Of a DNA stretch of 64,000 nt, positions 48,472-49,074 are shown piece by piece (the first letter of the stretch is position 1; each line of letters opens with the position of its first letter). Below the pieces are notes generated by a model. That model was not told the origin of the DNA and did not search any database. It saw only the letters and a list, made by a program, of their open reading frames with translations. The translations under genes and the position numbers were made by a program. Source of the DNA: Blastocatellia bacterium (GTDB lineage: Bacteria > Acidobacteriota > Blastocatellia > Pyrinomonadales > Pyrinomonadaceae); contig PMSM01000003.1 of assembly GCA_003168335.1 (NCBI GenBank), forward strand, positions 248,001 to 312,000. Reading direction: 5' to 3'.

Positions 48472-49074
48472 ATGTTCAAGAAAGCTCTCAGCTTCGCGCT
48501 CATGCTCATGGCGGCGGCTATGGCCGCTGCGCAAACGCCAACTCCGACCCCGACGCCGGCCAGGACCGCGCCGGTGGCGCCCCACACCAACTTGAAGGTA
48601 GGCGACAAAGCGCCGGACTTTACGCTCGCAAGCACCGCCCTCGGACCGGACGGAAAGACCCTGCGGTTTAAGCTCAGTGATTTCAAGGGTAAGAAAAACG
48701 TCGTGCTCGCCATCTACGTTTTGGCCTTTACCGGTGGTTGAACGAAGGAAATGAAGGCGTATCAGGCTGATATCGCCAAATTCGAAACTACCGATACACA
48801 GATTTTCGGACTCAGCGTCGACAGCGTTCCCGCCAATCGCGAATTCGCCAAACAGAACGGCATTACTTTTCCGCTGCTCAGCGATTTCAAACGCACCGTA
48901 GTGAAGGATTATGGAGTTTTTAATGAAGAGCAGGGCTTTGGCAATCGCGCTACCTTCGTAATCGACAAGGACGGCATCATCCAGCACATCGACGAAGGTA
49001 ACGTGGCGATTGATCCGACGACTGCCGAGGATGCCTGCAACATCCTGACGCACAAGAAGGCGACCGCGCCGTGA
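48472..49074 (+). CDS. Secreted peroxiredoxin-like selenoprotein (Sec at UGA 48739)
   Basis: Read through TGA 48739-48741, the gene encodes 200 residues. ATG 48472 follows GAGGAGA. A signal peptide (residues 1-20, [20 protein letters not shown]) and Thr-Pro linker precede an AhpC/TSA fold: [35 protein letters not shown]-Sec90-[60 protein letters not shown]. Sec90 sits precisely where peroxiredoxins have the peroxidatic Cys. Cys189 could act as resolving residue. A SECIS hairpin lies at 48756-48777. Without Sec the protein would stop before its active-site residue. It would reduce peroxides outside the cytoplasm. Confidence 0.9.
48756..48777 (+). promoter_or_regulatory. Bacterial SECIS element
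   Basis: Arms GGCGTATCA (48756-48764) and TGATA-T-CGCC (48768-48777) form nine base pairs with one bulged T at 48773, closed by loop GGC (48765-48767). The loop starts 24 bases after the UGA. Stem, bulged U, G at the loop start and distance all match the known rules for bacterial selenocysteine insertion elements that bind SelB. Confidence 0.85.

Follow-up and report, generated by a model that had tools for sequence, protein, structure and literature searches.

The stretch of Blastocatellia bacterium DNA analyzed here, 64,000 nucleotides long and termed the window, contains a gene at 48472–49074 that very probably encodes an exported AhpE-like peroxiredoxin with selenocysteine (Sec) as its peroxidatic residue. 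The protein is a variant form of the known "Prx, TxxU" selenoprotein family. The features of the gene, all on the forward strand, are as follows.

48456–48461, forward: GAGGAG, a probable Shine-Dalgarno sequence 10 nt upstream of the ATG, read directly from the sequence
48472–49074, forward: selenoprotein peroxiredoxin gene, 200 codons long, in which the internal UGA stands for Sec and a TGA is the terminator
48472–48531, forward: probable signal peptide, by inspection; the same architecture or a lipobox-like Cys is seen across the family
48739–48741, forward: in-frame TGA, the codon of the putative peroxidatic residue Sec90; TGA stands here in every family member found
48756–48777, forward: predicted bacterial SECIS hairpin of 9 bp with a 3-nt GGC loop and a bulged U at 48773, from folding, conservation, and synonymous permutation
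48946–48948, forward: codon of Arg159, which we take to be the catalytic Arg of peroxiredoxins; invariant in 65 of 65 members
49036–49038, forward: codon of Cys189, a candidate for the resolving residue, situated in the last helix (the C-terminal helix of the structural model); present in 64 of 65 members

Between the ATG at 48472 and the TGA ending at 49074, the reading frame holds a single in-frame stop, the TGA at 48739–48741. Automatic ORF calling cuts the gene in two at this codon (48403–48741 and 48751–49074, of 112 and 107 codons), so annotation is likely to miss it. With Cys placed at the TGA, the product matches the Pfam family AhpC-TSA (PF00578) over residues 43–173 with an E-value of 6.6e-36, unbroken at residue 90; the PF00578 score of the ORF product is 123.4 bits against a gathering threshold of 26. 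The initial annotation had placed an in-frame UGA at the peroxidatic position of an AhpC/TSA protein, and homologue alignment agrees, with the UGA falling on the peroxidatic Cys of homologues. Its further claim that coding similarity continues past the UGA is borne out by the span of the Pfam match and by a dN/dS of 0.04–0.09 after the UGA in comparisons with six relatives, similar to that before it. By this measure, the post-UGA codons are under purifying selection. From the sequence evidence, the UGA almost certainly encodes Sec.

The UGA is kept widely among relatives. Of 162 genomes from its class, 72 have a close homologue with TGA (E-values up to 4.4e-36), the five congeners that carry the gene all have TGA, and phylum-wide the codon is TGA in 41 of 41 matches at E ≤ 1e-38, other Acidobacteriota families included. 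The 19 closest homologues in the genome collection (L017–L035) likewise all have TGA, and the nearest named relatives (L017, L018) belong to Acidobacteriota subgroup 4/Pyrinomonadaceae. More distant homologues in the collection carry TGC/TGT or TGA at the catalytic codon; Cys thus takes the place of Sec in some of them, the exchange that the initial annotation had proposed to look for. No close family member with Cys for Sec was found among the class genomes and the phylum-wide matches, and all 72 class loci compared have Sec. A TGC or TGT at 48739, named beforehand as a sign against Sec, was not found, and retention of the TGA in relatives means that it is no base-calling error.

It is highly improbable that the UGA is a true stop or a sequencing error, leaving either a pseudogene or a product cut short at 89 residues. 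UGA does act as a stop elsewhere, also ending the selenoprotein gene itself, and a private, non-redox TGA in a BCP-type peroxiredoxin gene of the same window means that stray TGAs occur in the assembly. Such an origin is at odds with the same TGA in 72 class genomes and in other Acidobacteriota families, with the low dN/dS past it, and with the invariant R159 and near-invariant C189 that lie downstream. The BCP-type gene (40940–41404, forward strand) has its in-frame TGA at 40997–40999, where six of six congeners have Gly and no stop. It was considered as a second Sec peroxiredoxin and rejected: the TGA replaces Gly, the catalytic Cys is intact, all six congeners lack the TGA, and downstream stability is ordinary (p = 0.10). 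A nonsense mutation private to this genome, or an error of assembly, is the probable origin of this TGA.

Decoding of the UGA as something other than Sec, by Trp reassignment or general readthrough, is scarcely credible. An open frame on both sides of the UGA is what such decoding would give, but the TGA-less homologues examined all have Cys and never Trp, and a SECIS element and the Sec machinery accompany the codon. The same gene terminates with UGA, so the codon is not simply reassigned. Pseudogene formation, sequencing error, and Trp decoding were accordingly rejected on TGA conservation, purifying selection, Cys-only replacement, and the Sec machinery. All four components predicted by the initial annotation (selA, selB, selC, and selD), whose absence would have spoken against Sec, are present in the source genome (5.16 Mb, 14 contigs, 96.6% complete). 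SelA scores 530 bits against an NCBIfam cut-off of 267.9, SelB 381 against 242, and SelD 359.7 against 125, and the tRNA-Sec, with anticodon UCA, reaches 67.3 bits where the gathering threshold is 47. The selD gene (C7:141967–142896) has its own in-frame active-site TGA near the N-terminus, in the context CSG-U-AAKLAP, and SelD is for this reason probably a selenoprotein itself. SelB occurs in 64 of 72 genomes with the peroxiredoxin gene versus 68 of 90 without it, an association that is weak (Fisher p = 0.04) because SelB is common throughout the class regardless. It was not found in 8 of the 72 gene-bearing genomes, drafts of 130–1240 contigs, which counts against the best explanation.

The hairpin downstream of the UGA has the anatomy first claimed for it: a 9-bp stem, a bulged U, and a GG-starting loop whose first base is the 24th past the UGA, leaving 23 nt between. 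The 5′ arm GGCG-UAUCA (48756–48764) leads to the loop GGC (48765–48767), and the 3′ arm consists of UGAUA (48768–48772), the bulged U (48773), and CGCC (48774–48777). The bacterial SECIS model describes an apical loop of 3–9 nt on an upper stem of 4–16 bp, G in the first two loop positions (usually G then G/U), a UGA-to-loop distance of 16–37 nt, and a minimum free energy of −7.5 kcal/mol or lower (PMC13188914). The hairpin agrees with this model on all four published points. The 3-nt loop closes a stem of 5 bp, the bulged U, and 4 bp; the first loop base is G in 72 of 72 loci and the second is G in 56 or U in 16; and the distance of 23 nt and free energy of −10.0 kcal/mol lie within the limits. 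A search of the window with Rfam returned tRNA only, with no SECIS family reported.

Against plain dinucleotide shuffles the hairpin is unremarkable, 18 of 200 being equally stable, and comparative evidence is therefore needed. Its stability exceeds that of synonymous-codon permutations of the window gene (p = 0.005). The mean z from such permutations is −2.20 for 78 Sec loci versus −0.19 for 48 Cys homologues (Mann–Whitney p = 5e-16), kinship among loci inflating these permutation counts and those of SECIS conservation. Among 65 distinct family members, with positions given as offsets from the T in TGA, pairs 24/30 and 25/29 are invariant. Pair 23/31 never mismatches, 55 members having T-A and 10 having C-G; at pair 22/32, A-T stands in 61 members and T-A in the other 4. 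Pair 20/35 appears as G-C, A-T, C-G, T-A, and G-T, plus some mismatches. Position 23 is the synonymous third base of a Tyr codon; members with TAC have GGT, and those with TAT have GAT. The first loop G belongs to a Gln codon that is CAG in every member, while among the other Gln codons of these genes CAA accounts for 149 of 511. Tree-based covariation yielded few independent paired changes, with at most five supported pairs, too few for the sign tests to reach significance. When seven more distant members were added to the tree test, some lacked the full set of pairs in the same register.

Export of the peroxiredoxin is predicted with good confidence. Read by eye, the N-termini of nearly all 65 members start basic, continue with a hydrophobic segment, and lead to A-x-A-Q; some have a lipobox-like Cys, and residue 21 is Q in 51 of 65. 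Across the family no conserved operon partner was found, and neighbor clusters recur only inside close groups. In the window, an MsrP–MsrQ pair (45116–46799, forward strand; 441.6 and 165.9 bits, NCBIfam equivalogs above cut-off), a methionine-sulfoxide reductase/repair system known from the envelope, lies 1.7 kb upstream of the selenoprotein gene. The reverse strand at 51745–53382 encodes a protein that looks like a fusion, with a DsbA-like domain (FQCAACG) and a weak resemblance to PPIases. In part it is similar to a family of thioredoxin-like (seleno)lipoproteins (74 bits, cut-off 190), and it is a neighbor at five other loci. A common envelope redox role for MsrP/MsrQ, the DsbA-like protein, and the selenoprotein is possible.

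Two repeats also lie upstream of the gene. A palindromic element of about 160 bp (48243–48402), with perfect 29-bp inverted arms (ACCCGGTCGCTACCGCTCCCGGTACTGAC), stands 70 bp upstream and has 84 matches in the genome, both strands counted. It looks like a REP/MITE-type repeat and may possibly affect transcription. A tandem array of 42/21-bp units (ATCGTTCGACATGCGCCGCGGGTCAGACGAC...) occupies 47947–48136, with a methyltransferase gene on one side and the selenoprotein gene on the other.

A peroxidase-type function of the protein is likely. T87, G89, U90, S115, D117, S137, D138, Y147, G148, R159, and C189 are invariant or nearly so in the 65 members, with U90 and T87, three residues upstream of it, present in all. 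The AlphaFold model has a pLDDT of 95.3, and its best solved fold matches are tied between Sulfolobus solfataricus Bcp1 (Z 24.9) and Mycobacterium tuberculosis AhpE (Z 24.8, rmsd 1.4 over 150 residues). AhpE (Rv2238c; 1xvw, 4x0x, 5id2) is also the closest solved protein by sequence (1.5e-25). The motif PxxxTxxU is only partly present because its Pro, seven residues before U, is replaced by Val83 (YVL then AFTGGU), and for this reason peroxidase activity is not to be assumed. Among 64 members the position is Val in 54, Ile in 3, and Pro in 7; six of the seven that keep Pro are of Acidobacteriaceae/Bryobacterales type and branch outside the main group.

A selenoprotein of the same fold might instead carry out thiol-disulfide or other envelope redox chemistry without reducing peroxide. 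The replacement of the PxxxTxxC Pro by Val/Ile in 57 of 64 members and the fixed C-terminal partner Cys would fit such a role. It is nevertheless rather improbable: T87, U90, and R159 are retained, a UxxC motif is absent, members beyond the main group have the Pro plus the same U and Cys, and the nearest folds are peroxidases.

For a peroxidase with Sec90 as its peroxidatic residue, C189 is a reasonably likely resolving partner for the selenenic acid. It is found in 64 of 65 members, the remaining one having an assembly gap, and corresponds to residue 169 of the AlphaFold model, within the C-terminal helix 163–178. No second conserved Cys of the mature protein was found among the 65 members. 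In human Prx5, the resolving Cys is likewise situated in the last helix, about 100 residues past the peroxidatic one. A mechanism using Sec90 alone, with C189 structural and the selenenic acid reduced by a low-molecular-weight or protein thiol, would be AhpE-like, and AhpE, the closest solved relative, is termed a 1-Cys peroxiredoxin (titles of 1xvw and 1xxu). This option is somewhat unlikely, given C189 in nearly all members and a C-terminal Cys also in the Cys form of Anaeromyxobacter soli (L064), beside the Sec forms of its genus.

The proposed mechanism with a resolving C189 would proceed as follows. A ribosome reaching the UGA at 48739 would meet the SECIS hairpin starting 15 nt downstream, and SelB with Sec-tRNA-Sec would insert Sec90 without termination, as the structure of the hairpin and the Sec machinery of the genome suggest. 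The mature protein would leave by way of its signal peptide. Sec90 would then reduce peroxides and become a selenenic acid, which Cys189 would resolve as a selenenyl-sulfide, and a periplasmic thiol donor would reduce the Sec90–Cys189 bond.

Prx selenoproteins of PF00578 with a TxxU motif are an established family (PMC13188914, PMC1794560), and the Sargasso Sea set already held 43 Prx selenoprotein genes (PMC1088965). The initial annotation had understated the fixed Sec, lost Pro, and C-terminal Cys. Like other TxxU Prx selenoproteins, the window protein has the AhpC/TSA fold, a peroxidatic Sec after T-x-x, and a bacterial SECIS just downstream; it differs in Val/Ile for Pro, in the probable signal peptide (by inspection), and in the C-terminal Cys (64 of 65). 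It scores 79.7 bits against NCBIfam PrxU (NF040737), below the cut-off of 270. With the thiol peroxidase Prx-SUH (NF045827, CxxU) it shares a Sec-containing peroxiredoxin fold, but its score of 36 bits falls short of the 298-bit cut-off and its motif is TxxU, not CxxU. AhpE is a Cys-dependent 1-Cys enzyme, whereas the window protein has Sec together with a C-terminal Cys and is probably exported. The Sec/Cys peroxiredoxins of Anaeromyxobacter (L045, L080, L064) also have a C-terminal Cys, 98 or 99 residues past the catalytic one, yet they keep the Pro, fall outside the Acidobacteriota clade, and interchange Sec and Cys forms. The literature search, with subscription papers mostly outside its coverage, found no report of the subfamily of the window protein.

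In a tree of 151 rows (quick method, SH-aLRT), where long branches leave the deeper order unsure, an exclusively Sec-bearing group of 65 Acidobacteriota rows has support of 92. Around it are Pro-bearing Acidobacteriota Sec forms. Near it lie a weakly placed Anaeromyxobacter group, whose Sec and Cys forms both retain the Cys at the C-terminus, and a Planctomycetes/Verrucomicrobia group that also has both forms. Sec/Cys changes number 12 over the whole tree and zero within the 65-row group. A second, class-wide subfamily of Sec peroxiredoxins (L174–L184; about 43–53% identity, YPLAWTPVU or YPLDWTPVU) keeps the Pro and is without the C-terminal Cys, with Cys forms L185 and L186 nearby; it was not found in the source genome.

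The members may tentatively be seen, at a little under even chances, as an Acidobacteriota-wide exported Sec/Cys subfamily in which Sec is fixed, the Pro is lost, and the C-terminal Cys is resolving, serving selenium-dependent peroxide defense in the envelope. Sec is kept class-wide without a Cys fallback, unlike in distant homologues, where Sec and Cys interchange. Perhaps the selenolate makes the active-site Pro dispensable, and the clade offers a test case for whether Sec relaxes the need for this residue, as well as for whether selenium supply limits oxidative defense. If the proposal is true, common soil bacteria would have a selenium-dependent peroxide defense in their envelope, and this probable defense of soil Acidobacteriota is likely to escape annotation.
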